A stretch of DNA of 32,163 bases from Actinomycetes bacterium. Lineage in GTDB: Bacteria; Actinomycetota; Actinomycetes; JACCUZ01. Made by a program: the position numbers and the translations under genes. Under the pieces are notes generated by a model. That model made no database searches. It saw nothing but the letters and a program-made list of their open reading frames with translations, and was not told the DNA's origin. Positions 4,774 through 18,345 of the stretch are shown piece by piece. The DNA is taken from assembly GCA_035489715.1 (NCBI GenBank), contig DATHAP010000067.1, positions 1 through 32,163 on the forward strand, given 5' to 3'. Positions within the stretch are counted from its first letter, which is position 1. Every line of letters starts with the position of its first letter.

Positions 4774-5274
4774 ATGCCCACCGACGCCATCGTGCTGCTG
4801 AAGAAGGACCACCAGGAGGTGCGCAAGCTCTTCCGGGACTTCCAGAAGGCCGGTGAGGACGCCACGGCCACCAAGAGCCGGCTCGCCGACCAGATCATCG
4901 AGGCCCTGACCGTGCACACCTACATCGAGAACGAGGTCATGTACCCACGGGTCCGCGAGCTGCTTCCGGAGGTGGAGGACGACGTCCTCGAGTCCTACGA
5001 GGAGCATCACGTCGCCGACGTGCTGGTGATGGAGCTCGCCGGCATGACGCCGGATGACGAGCGGTTCGTGCCCAAGATGACGGTGCTGATCGAGAACGTG
5101 AAGCACCACATGGAGGAGGAGGAGCAGGAGTGGTTCCCCAAGGTTCGCGAGGGCCTCGGGCGCAAGCAGCTCCAGCAGCTGGGTGACGAGATGGTGGAGA
5201 AGAAGAAGAAGGCACCGCGCCGACCGACCGCTCCCAGCGCGCTGAAGAAGACCGTCGACGCCGTCATCGCCTGA
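4774..5274 (+). CDS. Hemerythrin domain-containing protein
   Basis: A 166-residue cytosolic four-helix protein of the hemerythrin/HHE family, which binds a di-iron centre and reacts with O2, NO or peroxide. Likely ligands are visible: H13 (KKDHQEV), H48 and E52 (VHTYIENEVMYP), H78 or H79 (EEHHVAD), and H111/H112 with the following acidic run (HHMEEEEQEWFP). The C-terminal tail after residue 140 is Lys/Arg/Pro-rich and may be disordered or bind nucleic acid. The ATG has a GGGGAG site 6 bases upstream. Short proteins of this kind in actinobacteria are usually annotated only as HHE-domain proteins; a role in iron or oxidative/nitrosative stress is inferred from the fold alone. Confidence 0.95.
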   Translation: MPTDAIVLLKKDHQEVRKLFRDFQKAGEDATATKSRLADQIIEALTVHTYIENEVMYPRVRELLPEVEDDVLESYEEHHVADVLVMELAGMTPDDERFVPKMTVLIENVKHHMEEEEQEWFPKVREGLGRKQLQQLGDEMVEKKKKAPRRPTAPSALKKTVDAVIA

Positions 5275-14031: not shown

Positions 14032-14355
14032 TCAGCCCCCGTAGGCGACGAGCGCGACGCCTGCCCAGAGCGTCACCATGCCGGTGGCGACGGCCCAGGA
14101 GGTCGAGCGGGTACGTCGCGCGACGACCCCGGCCACCGCCACCGCGGCGAGCAGCGGGACCAGCTCGGCCGGCCCGCCGGCCGCCGCGCCGGTGATCGAG
14201 GAGGCGCCGAGCGCGGCGAACGCCACCGGCGCGGTCAGGGGGCCGACCCGCTCCAGCCAGGCCGGCGCCGGGCGGGTCGACAGCACGGCCACCGGCACCA
14301 GCCGGATCGCGAGGGTGGCCAGGCCGGCCAGCAGGACGACGGTCCAGGTGCTCAT
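14032..14355 (-). CDS. azlD: AzlD family branched-chain amino acid transport subunit
   Basis: A 107-residue protein with about four hydrophobic segments covering nearly its whole length; it includes ATLAIRLVPVAVL and FAALGASSI, typical of AzlD. AzlD is the small partner of AzlC in a branched-chain amino acid exporter (and azaleucine resistance). ATG 14353-14355 overlaps the azlC stop in an ATGA, so the two are translationally coupled. Confidence 0.93.
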   Translation of the reverse strand: MSTWTVVLLAGLATLAIRLVPVAVLSTRPAPAWLERVGPLTAPVAFAALGASSITGAAAGGPAELVPLLAAVAVAGVVARRTRSTSWAVATGMVTLWAGVALVAYGG

Positions 14356-15119
14356 GCGGTCCTCCTCAGGACGATCGAGCCGGCGAGCAGGCCGGCCATC
14401 ATGCCGACGGCCGGGCCCAGGTGCAGGGGCAGCAGCGAGGCGCCGACCGCGGTGACTGTCGCGACGCTGACGGCGACCCAGGTCGCCTTCGTCCGGACGC
14501 TGAGCACGACCAGCGCCACGATGTAGAGCGGGCCGATCGACTCCAGGTGCAGGGCCGACGGCAGGACGGCGCCGACGGTCACCCCGAGACCGGTGACGGT
14601 CAGCCAGCCGGCCCAGAGCACGAGCGCGCCGCCGAGATAGTGCCGGTGCGCGAGCCGGGCCGACCGCGAGCCGTCGTAGGACTGGCTGCCGACGGCGAAC
14701 GACGGGTCGATCAGCAGGTAGCCGGCGAGCACCCGCCACCACCAGCTGGTGCCCCGCCAGTGCGGGGCGAGCGCGGCGCCGTAGAGGCCGACCCGCAGGT
14801 TGATCACGGCCACGCTGGCCACGACGACCGCCGCCGACGCGCTGCCGCCGAGCAGCCCGACCGCCGCCAGCTGCGCGCTACCGGCGTAGACCAGCCAGGA
14901 CAGCGACCAACCGGCCAGGTGCGGGACGCCGGCCTCGGCGACGGTCACCCCGATGACCAGACCGAACGGCGCCACGCCGGCTAGCAGCGGCAGCATCGCC
15001 CGCACCCCGTCGAGGAAGGCGCGGCGGCCGGCCGCTCGGTCGACGCCCTCGGCAGGCGTGGACCGGGGAGCGGTCGAGGCGTGGCCCGGGGCCGCGGGGG
15101 CGAGCGCAGTGGTGGTCAT
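14352..15119 (-). CDS. azlC: AzlC family branched-chain amino acid transporter
   Basis: A 255-residue membrane protein. After an Ala/Pro-rich polar N-terminus of about 35 residues come roughly seven to eight hydrophobic segments. These include the AzlC signatures LAGVAPFGLVIGVTVAEAG, LSWLVYAGSAQLAAVGLLGG and INLRVGLYGAALAPHWRG. With AzlD it forms an exporter of branched-chain amino acids. ATG 15117-15119 is the only good start. The gene lies 84 bases downstream of the sigma-factor gene on the same strand, so read-through is possible, but no functional link is evident. Confidence 0.95.
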   Translation of the reverse strand: MTTTALAPAAPGHASTAPRSTPAEGVDRAAGRRAFLDGVRAMLPLLAGVAPFGLVIGVTVAEAGVPHLAGWSLSWLVYAGSAQLAAVGLLGGSASAAVVVASVAVINLRVGLYGAALAPHWRGTSWWWRVLAGYLLIDPSFAVGSQSYDGSRSARLAHRHYLGGALVLWAGWLTVTGLGVTVGAVLPSALHLESIGPLYIVALVVLSVRTKATWVAVSVATVTAVGASLLPLHLGPAVGMMAGLLAGSIVLRRTA

Positions 15120-15203: not shown

Positions 15204-15821
15204 TCAGGAGCCGCAGTTGCAGCCGTCCCCCGGCGCTCGGTAGCCGATGACCGCGCCGGAACGGTCCAGCTCGACCGGGCAGCAGCCGGTGACCTGGTCC
15301 TTGAGTCGGCGACGGGCTCGTTGGACGCGCGACTTCATACCGGACACCGAGATGTCGAGCTGGTCAGCGGCCTGCTGGTGGGTCTGCCCCTCCAGGTCCA
15401 CCCGGGTCAGCGCGTCGCGCGACTCCGGCGGCAGCCGATCCAGCAGCGGCTGCAGGCAGCGGGCGAGCTCCCGGGTCGCCTCGTTGGGCAGGTCCGTGGA
15501 CGTCTCAGGGTCCGGCCACAGGTCCAGGTCGGGCAGCTCACCGTGCGGCCGGCGGGTGCGGTAGTGGTCGATCAGGGCGTTGCGGGCCGAGCGGTAGAGC
15601 CATGCGGTGACGTCGTCGACCCGGTCCAGCGCCCCGGAGGCGATGCTGCGGACGACGACGTCCTGGGTGATGTCGGCCGCGAGCTCGGGATCGCCTGTCC
15701 GACTGGTCACGAATGCCCGGATCCGGCGCAGGGTCTCGGCCCACTGGACGTCCTGGTGGGAGACGGTCTCGACGGTGCCTGGGCCCATGTCGATCCTGAC
15801 CGGTCGTGCCTCCACGGGCAT
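15204..15821 (-). CDS. sigZ: SigZ-like ECF sigma factor with Cys-rich C-terminal tail
   Basis: A 205-residue ECF sigma factor that directs RNA polymerase to specific promoters. Region 2 covers about residues 28-92 (DPELAADITQDVVVRSI, VTAWLYRSARNALIDHYRTRR). Region 4 covers about 120-175 (LPPESRDALTRVDLEG, then the helix-turn-helix HQQAADQLDISVSGMKSRVQRARRRL). Beyond region 4 is a 30-residue tail with C180-C181 and C201-x-C203, framed by ELDRSGAVIGY, like the tail of SigZ-type factors. No anti-sigma gene is adjacent, so the tail may sense a thiophilic metal directly (inference). The ATG has a strong GAGGAGG site. It is divergent from cadI, and both genes carry the same promoter motif, so the sigma factor probably drives itself and cadI. 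Confidence 0.93.
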   Translation of the reverse strand: MPVEARPVRIDMGPGTVETVSHQDVQWAETLRRIRAFVTSRTGDPELAADITQDVVVRSIASGALDRVDDVTAWLYRSARNALIDHYRTRRPHGELPDLDLWPDPETSTDLPNEATRELARCLQPLLDRLPPESRDALTRVDLEGQTHQQAADQLDISVSGMKSRVQRARRRLKDQVTGCCPVELDRSGAVIGYRAPGDGCNCGS

Positions 15822-15849
15822 GGGCTCCTCCTCGTGCTCTCACCATATA

Positions 15850-15875
15850 GACGAAGCGAACGCCTGGGGGACGCA
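15850..15875 (-). promoter_or_regulatory. ECF-type promoter of the sigma-factor gene
   Basis: On the minus strand, TGCGTCCC (15868-15875) is followed after 9 bases by CGCTTCGTC (15850-15858), then TATA. The -10 end is 28 bases before the sigma ATG. The same composite motif with identical spacing occurs on the other strand before cadI. Confidence 0.7.
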
Positions 15876-15900
15876 CCGACCAAAGGCGGCCGGGACCACC

Positions 15901-15926
15901 TGCGTCCCTCGGTCGGGCGCTTCGTC
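15901..15926 (+). promoter_or_regulatory. ECF-type promoter of cadI
   Basis: TGCGTCCC (15901-15908), 9 bases, then CGCTTCGTC (15918-15926), facing cadI. By direct comparison it matches the minus-strand copy at 21 of 26 positions. The two -35 elements are back to back, 25 bp apart. The motif ends 48 bases before the cadI ATG. Confidence 0.7.
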
Positions 15927-15974: not shown

Positions 15975-16424
15975 ATGACCTCCAGCCGCCTGCAGCTCGC
16001 GCTCAACGTCTCGGACCTCGGCGTTGCCGTCGAGCGCTACACGGCCGTGTTCGGACAGGGTCCGAGCAAGGAGCGACCCGGCTATGCCAACTTCCTGCTG
16101 AGCGACCCACCGCTCAAGCTCGTGCTCTTCGAGAATCCGCACGGGACGTCTGCGCTCAACCACCTGGGTGTCGAGCTCGGTTCTGCCGACGACGTCCGGG
16201 CCGCCGCGGAGCAGTTCGCCGCCCGCGGGCTGGCCCACTCGGTGGCCGAGTCGGACGTGTGCTGCCACGCCAGGCAGGACAAGGTCTGGGTGGACGTGCC
16301 GGACGTCCCCCTCGGAGCCTGGGAGTTCTACACCGTCCTCGACGACGACCCGGCGCCGGACGTCCGCTCGGACAGCCTGTGCTGCGCCACCCCGGACTCG
16401 GCAGCTGGGCCTTGTTGTGAGTGA
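15975..16424 (+). CDS. cadI: CadI/ArsI-type VOC-fold metal-response protein
   Basis: A 149-residue single-domain VOC protein closely resembling mycobacterial CadI (cadmium-inducible) and related to the ArsI C-As lyase. The family core is visible: LQLALNVSDL, RPGYANFLLSDPPLKLVLFENP, LNHLGVE (H63), the vicinal pair C96-C97 in SDVCCHARQDKVWV, and E117 in AWEFYTVL. ArsI has His at the first metal-ligand position; here it is Q7, as I recall for CadI, so thiol-based metal binding rather than lyase activity is favoured. The C-terminus adds two more Cys pairs, C136-C137 and C147-C148. The ATG has AAGGAG 6 bases upstream. It sits opposite a Cys-tailed ECF sigma gene with a matching promoter, so a cadmium, arsenic or similar metal response is likely. 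Confidence 0.92.
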   Translation: MTSSRLQLALNVSDLGVAVERYTAVFGQGPSKERPGYANFLLSDPPLKLVLFENPHGTSALNHLGVELGSADDVRAAAEQFAARGLAHSVAESDVCCHARQDKVWVDVPDVPLGAWEFYTVLDDDPAPDVRSDSLCCATPDSAAGPCCE

Positions 16425-16499: not shown

Positions 16500-17741
16500 G
16501 TGAACAGCCGAGCAAGCACGATCCAGCGCCACCAGGTCGTCGTCGTCGGTGCCCGCGTCGCCGGGGCCGCCACGGCGATGCTGCTGGCCCGCGCCGGGCA
16601 CGACGTCGTGCTCCTCGACCGGTCGCCTTTCCCGAGCGACACGGTCTCGACCCATGGCATCGCCCGCGGCGGCGTCGTCCAGCTGTCCCGCTGGGGCCTG
16701 CTCGACGAGGTGCACGCGACCGGCGCGCCCGCCGTCCGCGAGGTCCTGTTCCGGCTCGGCCAGCGGCAGGACGTGCGCCGGATCAAGCACCGGGCCGGGG
16801 TCAACCATCTCGTCGCGCCCCGCCGGCACGCCCTCGACTCCGTCCTGCAGGCCGCCGCGGTCCGGGCCGGCGCCACGATGCGCACCGGCGTGACCGTCAC
16901 TGGCGTTCGCCGCCGGGCCGACGGCCGGGTGGTCGGTGTCGACGGGCGCGGGCCCGGAGGGGAGCCCGTGACCGTCGAGGCCGACCTGGTCATCGGCGCC
17001 GACGGCGTGCGCTCGCGGATGGCCGGCTGGCTGGGCGCCGAGATGCTGCACTCGTCACCGTCCAGCACCGGCACCTTCTACACCTACGTGGCCGACGTGC
17101 CTCTCGAGACCGACGGGGTCGCGTACGAGTTCCACGTCGCCCGGGACGCCTTCGCCGGCATCTTCCCGACCAACGACGGCCACGCCTGCGTCTGGCTCGG
17201 TGCGCCCACCCGGACGCTGGGGATGCTGCACTCCCCCGGCCCGGAGCGGGTCGGCGGCCTGCTCGCAGCGATCTCCGCGGCCTCCCCGTCGCTCGGCGCC
17301 CGGGTGCGCGCCGGCCGGGTGCTGGCTCCGGTCCGTGGCCGGGCCGACCTGCCCAACGTCGTACGTCGCCCGGTCGGCCGCCCGCTTCCCCGCGGGGCCG
17401 GACGGTCCTCGGGTGGCTGGGCACTGGTCGGCGACGCCGGCTACCACCGCGACCCGGTCACCGGGCACGGCATCACCGACGCCTTCCGCGACGCCGAGCT
17501 CCTCGCCGGCGCCGTCGACACCGCGCTGCGCAACCCCGAGTGCGAGCAGGACGCCCTCACCGGCTACCACGTCCGGCGCGACGCGGCCCTGCGTGAGGTC
17601 TTCTCCATCACGAGGGACCTGAGCGCGTTCCCGGCCCCCGAGCGCTTCGTCGAGCTGCAGATCCAGCTCTCCGACGCGCTCGAGCGCGAGGCGGAGGACC
17701 TCGCAGCACTGCCCTTTCCGGCGGCGGCCGTCGCCGCCTGA
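16500..17741 (+). CDS. FAD-dependent oxidoreductase/monooxygenase
   Basis: A 413-residue flavoprotein of the PHBH-like group (aromatic hydroxylases, geranylgeranyl reductases). Motifs are VVVVGARVAGAATAMLLARAG (15-35, Rossmann-type FAD site), DLVIGADGVRSRM near 160 (DG motif), and GDAGYHRDPVTGHGI (311-325, GD motif contacting the FAD ribityl chain). STHGIARGGVVQLSRWGLLDEV near 49-70 is typical of actinobacterial members. No membrane segment is seen. The substrate is unknown. The GTG at 16500 lacks a good ribosome site but is the last start before the FAD motif. It is followed after 31 bases by the OsmC gene; the pair is likely one transcript, possibly reading through from cadI 75 bases upstream. 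Confidence 0.9.
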   Translation: MNSRASTIQRHQVVVVGARVAGAATAMLLARAGHDVVLLDRSPFPSDTVSTHGIARGGVVQLSRWGLLDEVHATGAPAVREVLFRLGQRQDVRRIKHRAGVNHLVAPRRHALDSVLQAAAVRAGATMRTGVTVTGVRRRADGRVVGVDGRGPGGEPVTVEADLVIGADGVRSRMAGWLGAEMLHSSPSSTGTFYTYVADVPLETDGVAYEFHVARDAFAGIFPTNDGHACVWLGAPTRTLGMLHSPGPERVGGLLAAISAASPSLGARVRAGRVLAPVRGRADLPNVVRRPVGRPLPRGAGRSSGGWALVGDAGYHRDPVTGHGITDAFRDAELLAGAVDTALRNPECEQDALTGYHVRRDAALREVFSITRDLSAFPAPERFVELQIQLSDALEREAEDLAALPFPAAAVAA

Positions 17742-17772
17742 GACCCACCACAACAAGTACGGAGGACCATCC

Positions 17773-18345
17773 ATGTCTCTCACCGAGACCACCGCACCAC
17801 GCCGCAACGGCGTCGACGTCGAGACGCTCTTCGCCACCATCGGCGTCGTGAAGAACCAGCCCGAGCTGGCCCGCTTCCAGTTCCGCTCGTCGCACGAGTG
17901 GGTCAGCGGGACCCACAACAAGGGCACCATCACCGGCTTCTACGGCGCCGGTCAGGAGCACCAGCACGCGGCCCCGACCACCATCGAGGCCGACCACCCG
18001 GCCGTCCTCGTCGGTGCCGACCACGCGCCGACGCCGGCCGAGCTGCTGCTCAACGCGCTCGGCGCCTGCCTGATGAGCGGCCTGGCCAACATCGCGGCCG
18101 CCCGCGGCATCGACCTCAACGGCGTCACCGCGACCGTCGAGGGCGACATCGACCTGCGCGGCATCCTCGGCATCGACCCCGAGGTGCGCAACGGCTACGA
18201 GGGCATCCGCGTCGTCTTCCACGTCGACGGCGAGGCGGCGGCCGAGCAGCTGGCCAAGCTGGTCGACCAGTCGCGGGCCCGGTCGGCGGTGTTCGACGTC
18301 ATCACCAACGGCGTGCCGGTCACCGTCGACGTGGCGGCTGCCTGA
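17773..18345 (+). CDS. OsmC family protein
   Basis: A 190-residue protein of the OsmC/Ohr fold, whose members reduce organic hydroperoxides with a pair of cysteines. It has the conserved LLLNALGACLMSGL segment, giving the first, peroxidatic Cys (about residue 100). The position of the second Cys reads SRARSAVFDVITNGVPVTV with no Cys, so a standard two-cysteine Ohr cycle is unlikely; many general OsmC-family proteins share this pattern. The ATG has GGAGG 7 bases upstream. It is probably co-transcribed with the flavoprotein gene, and a strong hairpin follows 16 bases after the stop. Confidence 0.93.
   Translation: MSLTETTAPRRNGVDVETLFATIGVVKNQPELARFQFRSSHEWVSGTHNKGTITGFYGAGQEHQHAAPTTIEADHPAVLVGADHAPTPAELLLNALGACLMSGLANIAAARGIDLNGVTATVEGDIDLRGILGIDPEVRNGYEGIRVVFHVDGEAAAEQLAKLVDQSRARSAVFDVITNGVPVTVDVAAA

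Follow-up and report, generated by a model that had tools for sequence, protein, structure and literature searches.

Bacterial responses to arsenic are generally viewed as ArsR-type repression, and the usual control of cadI/arsI genes in actinobacteria is exerted by a divergent ArsR-ArsI pair. Among metal-sensing ECF sigma factors, two from Myxococcus xanthus end in a Cys-rich tail and are not known to have an anti-sigma factor, namely CorE, which is activated by Cu, and CorE2, which is activated by Cd and Zn (PMC3107203, PMC8999054). Both belong to ECF238, the former ECF44, and control metal-resistance genes. ECF287 and ECF288 possess Cys-rich C-terminal extensions as well and have been suggested to work like CorE (PMC8999054). 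The concept of a Cys-tailed ECF sigma factor that is free of an anti-sigma partner is therefore already known, and an earlier sequence-only reading of the DNA discussed here, which had taken such a sigma/effector module to be new, has to be corrected on this point. For SigZ of B. subtilis, a 2023 review of the sigma factors of this organism gives no function (PMC10141391). Our full-text search for SigZ together with arsenic yielded no paper linking the two, and a literature search for ArsM or ArsI together with ECF yielded no report of a link either. Within this literature, which is distinct from the main ECF classification (Casas-Pastor, 2021), the linking of SigZ to an arsenic regulon appears to be new, as does the promoter of this regulon.

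The window, i.e., the whole stretch of 32,163 nucleotides from an Actinomycetes bacterium that was analyzed, encodes a SigZ-like ECF sigma factor of 205 amino acids (15204..15821, minus strand) and, divergently, an ArsI/CadI-family C-As lyase with VOC fold of 149 amino acids (15975..16424, plus strand). Exact matches to TGCGTCCC-N9-CGCTTCGTC occur twice in the window, at 15850-15875 on the minus strand, reading TGCGTCCCCCAGGCGTTCGCTTCGTC, and at 15901-15926 on the plus strand, reading TGCGTCCCTCGGTCGGGCGCTTCGTC. As had been claimed from the sequence, the two copies are equally spaced, lie one on each strand and are identical in 21 of 26 positions; after dinucleotide shuffling, even a search tolerating three mismatches finds only 0.57 matches on average. 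The copy ahead of the sigma gene can be read as a -35 element TGCGTCC (15869-15875), a 15-base spacer and a -10 element CGTC (15850-15853), and the copy ahead of cadI/arsI as TGCGTCC (15901-15907), a 15-base spacer and CGTC (15923-15926). A -10 element CGTC is typical of ECF promoters. The distance between the end of CGTC and the ATG, judged sensible in the earlier reading, amounts to 28 bases for the sigma gene and 48 bases for cadI, with a good ribosome-binding site at each gene (that of the sigma gene, GAGGAGGAG, was assigned from sequence at 15825..15833, minus strand). The assignment of both copies as twin ECF promoters is strongly supported, and very probably they are the promoters of the adjacent sigma factor, which would thus control its own synthesis and that of CadI.

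In the complete genome of 3.53 Mb, these two are the only exact copies of TGCGTCCC-N9-CGCTTCGTC. The looser core TGCGTCC-N15-CGTC is found at five sites as compared to six for a reversed-pattern control, and the three additional sites, situated in coding frames and at the level of this control, were treated as chance occurrences. One of these three is a near-copy on contig C210; there the exact core motif (5218-5243 of the contig, L003:1501-1526) overlaps the start codon of a gene for an MshC-like mycothiol ligase, which is probably fortuitous, and genes for thiol synthesis are found among the motif targets of relatives. A plasmid search with the intergenic DNA of the window gave no match. In sigma-bearing actinobacteria, motif sites concentrate at the sigma locus and the remainder are scattered, so that the regulon in the window's genome probably consists of just two promoters. 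The notion of one effector holds for this genome, with its two ECF-type promoters, but does not extend to relatives, which run up to six promoters and have ArsM, ArsP, GshA, PIG-L, and Cys-rich peptides among their targets.

The sigma factor contains the sigma-2 (r2) and sigma-4 (r4) Pfam domains, its AlphaFold model shows an ECF fold, and the best Foldseek matches are SigE, SigL, and SigH of M. tuberculosis. It scores 151 bits with NF007215 and 149.1 bits with the SigZ model TIGR02959, of which it matches positions 1-167 of 170 including the C-terminal tail region. With the SigZ family, to which B. subtilis SigZ belongs, it shares the fold and the tail region, and Bacillota members that exceed the cut-off have both the promoter and the Cys tail in common with it. 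Since its score lies below the curated equivalog cut-off of 168.65, the window's sigma factor is, by homology, best described as a divergent branch of SigZ; its closest relatives show 43-45% identity. The tail carries CC at residues 180-181, just after sigma-4 (codons 15279..15284, minus strand), and CxC at residues 201-203 (15213..15221, minus strand), in line with a family pattern of a conserved CC followed by C-x(1-3)-C. C181 is invariant and C180 is conserved in more than 90% of the aligned sequences, and 63 of 73 family members have at least one further tail Cys. C122 at the end of the sigma-2/sigma-4 linker (15456..15458, minus strand) is also kept in 63 of 73. By analogy to CorE, the five cysteines C122, C180, C181, C201, and C203 are the probable sensor. 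Like CorE and CorE2, the window's sigma factor is a Cys-tailed ECF factor without a linked anti-sigma factor. However, the sigma-2/sigma-4 linker of CorE contains a CxC where the window's protein has the single C122, and arsenic, the presumptive signal of the window's protein, differs from the Cu or Cd/Zn to which CorE and CorE2 respond. With ECF287 and ECF288, compared by their description alone, the Cys-rich tail is shared. Among the genes downstream of the sigma genes, no member of an anti-sigma family and no zinc anti-sigma motif was found, in agreement with the earlier suggestion that a linked partner is missing. In the window, the sigma gene is followed by genes for an AzlC-like permease subunit (14352..15119, minus strand; PF03591), which is not an anti-sigma factor, and for AzlD (14032-14352; PF05437); AzlC as a conserved partner was discarded, as it is not seen at other sigma loci.

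The effector scores 144.8 bits with NF041414, above the curated cut-off of 116, and aligns to PDB entries 5dfg and 5c4p, which we take to be ArsI of T. curvata, with values of 1e-27 to 1e-28. Residues Q7, H63, C96-C97, and E117 align to 5dfg, and a Cys-rich tail is also present. From their roles in ArsI, C96-C97 presumably form the vicinal Cys pair and Q7, H63, and E117 presumably are the VOC metal ligands. The window's CadI is therefore predicted to be an ArsI-type C-As lyase. On the same strand follow genes for an FAD-dependent oxidoreductase (16500..17741; PF01494), 75 bases after cadI/arsI, and for an OsmC-like protein (17773..18345; PF02566). Judged by spacing, it is possible, if uncertain, that both belong to the cadI/arsI operon, and the two genes of the region 16500-18345 could be transcribed together with cadI/arsI and have functions related to arsenicals or thiols.

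An alignment of five sigma members, run against 84,980 bacterial and archaeal genomes, led to 80 loci, to which further sigma loci from whole-genome and plasmid searches were added. The resulting 94 loci (856 kb, window included) contain TGCGTC[C/T]-N15-CGTC 94 times, while other spacings from 3 to 35 give 0-15 matches each, mostly 0-3; the 15 matches at spacing 12 are probably due to -10 elements reading CGTCGTC. The expectation that the motif recurs at related sigma/cadI loci was borne out, as 55 of the 73 relatives that possess the C-terminal Cys pair carry it within 1.5 kb. None of 20 ECF factors without Cys tail has it within this distance, and such a site is missing from 28 loci where cadI, mostly paired with arsR, occurs without the sigma gene. 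In 18 of the 73 family members, the exact motif is absent nearby, some of these showing a variant spacing and some having short flanks. The motif is spread over nine phyla, i.e., Actinomycetota, Nitrospirota, Gemmatimonadota, Pseudomonadota, Myxococcota, Chloroflexota, Poribacteria, Bacillota, and Bacteroidota. Back-to-back pairs as in the window also occur in Actinomycetospora, Rhodococcus, Nocardia, Skermania, and one further genome (G504); the separation of the paired copies differs between loci, whereas the internal spacing of 15 bases is constant. In Nitrospira, Gemmatimonadota, Myxococcota, and Bacillota, a single copy in one orientation is situated upstream of an operon at promoter distance. 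As an out-of-sample set, four Bacillota genomes were picked by the SigZ HMM alone, all of them over the cut-off (207-218 bits), and in all three that were new to our collection, one of the four being already included, TGCGTC[CT]-N15-CGTC lies immediately beside sigZ. The genomes of Cohnella and Photobacterium each have a single site for the stricter TGCGTCTTT-N13-CGTC, located at the sigma locus.

The genes downstream of the 94 sites point to arsenic. They code for CadI/ArsI (24 in total, the window's included), the sigma factors themselves (20; the element and its spacing are the same ahead of about 20 of the family's sigma genes), ArsM (11), PIG-L deacetylases (5), ABC ATPases (4), DUF2703 proteins (3), a second methyltransferase family (3), GshA (2), an ArsP-type permease (1), and a flavin monooxygenase (1). 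Another 20 sites precede genes without family assignment, several of which encode small Cys-rich peptides, and none of the 94 is located inside an assigned gene. The ArsM proteins, arsenite methyltransferases, score 326-336 bits as compared to a curated cut-off of 263. Within 2.5 kb of the sigma gene, cadI/arsI is found at 27 of 73 loci and arsM at 14 more, some arsenic-type neighbor being present at 51 of 73; arsR, arsD, and arsH are recurring neighbors. In Nitrospira, Gemmatimonadota, and Proteobacteria, cadI precedes the sigma gene in one operon, and in other actinobacteria the two genes are convergent, as opposed to divergent in the window. In three genomes from the same family as the window, both the sigma gene and the motif are missing and cadI is paired with arsR, so that, judged by gene order, the window's sigma factor occupies the place where its kin have the ArsR repressor. 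Effector and divergent layout are those of the usual ArsR-ArsI pair, and an activating sigma factor with its own promoter would replace the repressor. As close orthologs from the same family lack the sigma gene, they could not serve for direct footprinting.

Because the effector is of the ArsI type and relatives of the sigma factor reside in arsenic gene clusters, the cadmium theme of the sequence-only reading is not supported, and trivalent arsenic is the likely signal. One might still suppose that the sigma factor answers Cd(II)/Zn(II) or general thiol stress, as CorE2 does, with arsenic genes being just some of its targets. ArsI/CadI proteins of mycobacteria are induced by Cd(II) too, which would leave room for other thiophilic metals. 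The targets of relatives include GshA, PIG-L/BshB-like deacetylases, and Cys-rich peptides, which would also fit a general response to thiol or metal stress, and in CorE2 it is the Cys-rich C-terminus that mediates the response to Cd and Zn (PMC8999054). However, ArsI, ArsM, and ArsP are dedicated arsenic functions, arsenic genes such as arsR, arsD, and arsH recur beside the sigma relatives, and no cadmium exporter of the CadA/CzcD type was identified behind the motif in the loci examined, which makes a broader metal or thiol signal unlikely, if worth keeping in mind.

Other explanations concern the element itself. Arranged as an inverted repeat between divergent genes, the two copies have a layout that is common for the operator of a dimeric repressor such as ArsR; this reading is hard to reconcile with lone copies at promoter distance in four phyla, with arms whose separation varies around a fixed internal spacing, with an ECF-type -10 sequence and with the complete absence of the element from cadI-arsR loci, and we consider it very improbable. 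About equally implausible is that another ECF factor serves these promoters and that the adjacent sigma gene is merely one of its targets. The genome does encode many other ECF factors (32 matches to the SigZ model), but the motif tracks this sigma subfamily over nine phyla, is lacking near the ECF factors without Cys tail, and is missing ahead of cadI in same-family genomes devoid of the sigma gene. That the likeness of the two copies is a coincidence might be argued from the high GC content of the genome and its five loose core sites, yet the spacing statistics and the conservation across phyla contradict this so clearly that it can hardly be entertained.

We thus favor, with good confidence, a self-contained arsenic-response module in which the sigma factor senses a trivalent arsenical and drives its own gene and arsI/cadI. 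In this model, the sigma factor, having no anti-sigma partner, would be kept inactive or unstable before an arsenical arrives. As(III) or methyl-As(III) would bind to C122 in the linker and to C180-C181 and C201-x-C203 in the tail, and the arsenical-bound sigma factor would become active and bring RNA polymerase to TGCGTCC-N15-CGTC promoters. In the window's genome, the targets would be limited to the sigma gene itself and the divergent arsI/cadI, resulting in positive autoregulation and induction of the C-As lyase, and ArsI would demethylate, and thereby remove, MAs(III). Sequence comparison establishes the twin promoters and their conservation alongside the sigma factor in several phyla, the ArsI nature of the effector, the arsenic gene neighborhood, the conserved cysteines, and the lack of a linked anti-sigma gene, whereas recognition of these promoters by this sigma factor, arsenic as its signal, and the cysteines as its sensor are inferred.

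The long-orphan SigZ family looks like an arsenic sensor. We lean, with some reserve, toward a wider reading in which all members of the SigZ-type family are one-component sigma factors, activated by arsenicals and distributed across phyla, that sense As(III)/MAs(III) by their own linker and tail cysteines and run an organoarsenical cycle, comprising ArsM, ArsI, ArsP, thiol synthesis, and Cys-rich peptides, from a near-universal TGCGTC[C/T]TT-N13-CGTC promoter. If so, the family would be among sigma factors what ArsR is among repressors and would provide a function for the orphan SigZ of B. subtilis, and signal, promoter, and regulon could be assigned to the family. A sigma factor that senses arsenic directly would represent a second, activating logic for methylation and demethylation genes in nine phyla, nitrifying Nitrospira among them, and might be used as a compact biosensor component consisting of one protein. 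Conservation of the promoter is high enough for regulons to be deduced from sequence.

Several relatives display additional features. Small Cys-rich peptides, mostly of 53-77 amino acids and of 30 in L074, are encoded directly behind the motif (L010:5932, L011:5928, L023:5963, L037:5949, and L019:5899, minus strand; L056:5566 and L074:5588, plus strand), with patterns such as ..TCC..TCC..TCCGP..GGCGC, and are possibly arsenic-binding thiol peptides. In Rhodococcus, Nocardia, and Skermania, a conserved 30-residue peptide of the MLTTHLLSDLTDEEVDLIVAEELHLLDAIP type lies behind the divergent promoter opposite the sigma gene (L010:4829, L023:4880, L037:4826, and L019:4842, minus strand). Actinomycetospora chibensis has sigma/cadI/PIG-L twice, along with a third motif that stands as an orphan (L165 and L166 of G755). 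On a conjugative plasmid of Klebsiella (L012:3920-5948), the sigma gene forms part of an ars cluster arsR-arsH-sigZ-arsD; as the motif is missing there and the sigma factor has a degenerate tail, its gene may be under ArsR control, and about 980 Klebsiella plasmid records contain a sigma relative. In Photobacterium (L029/L039:5683-5708), the motif is located ahead of gshA, coding for glutamate-cysteine ligase, which adjoins the sigma gene.
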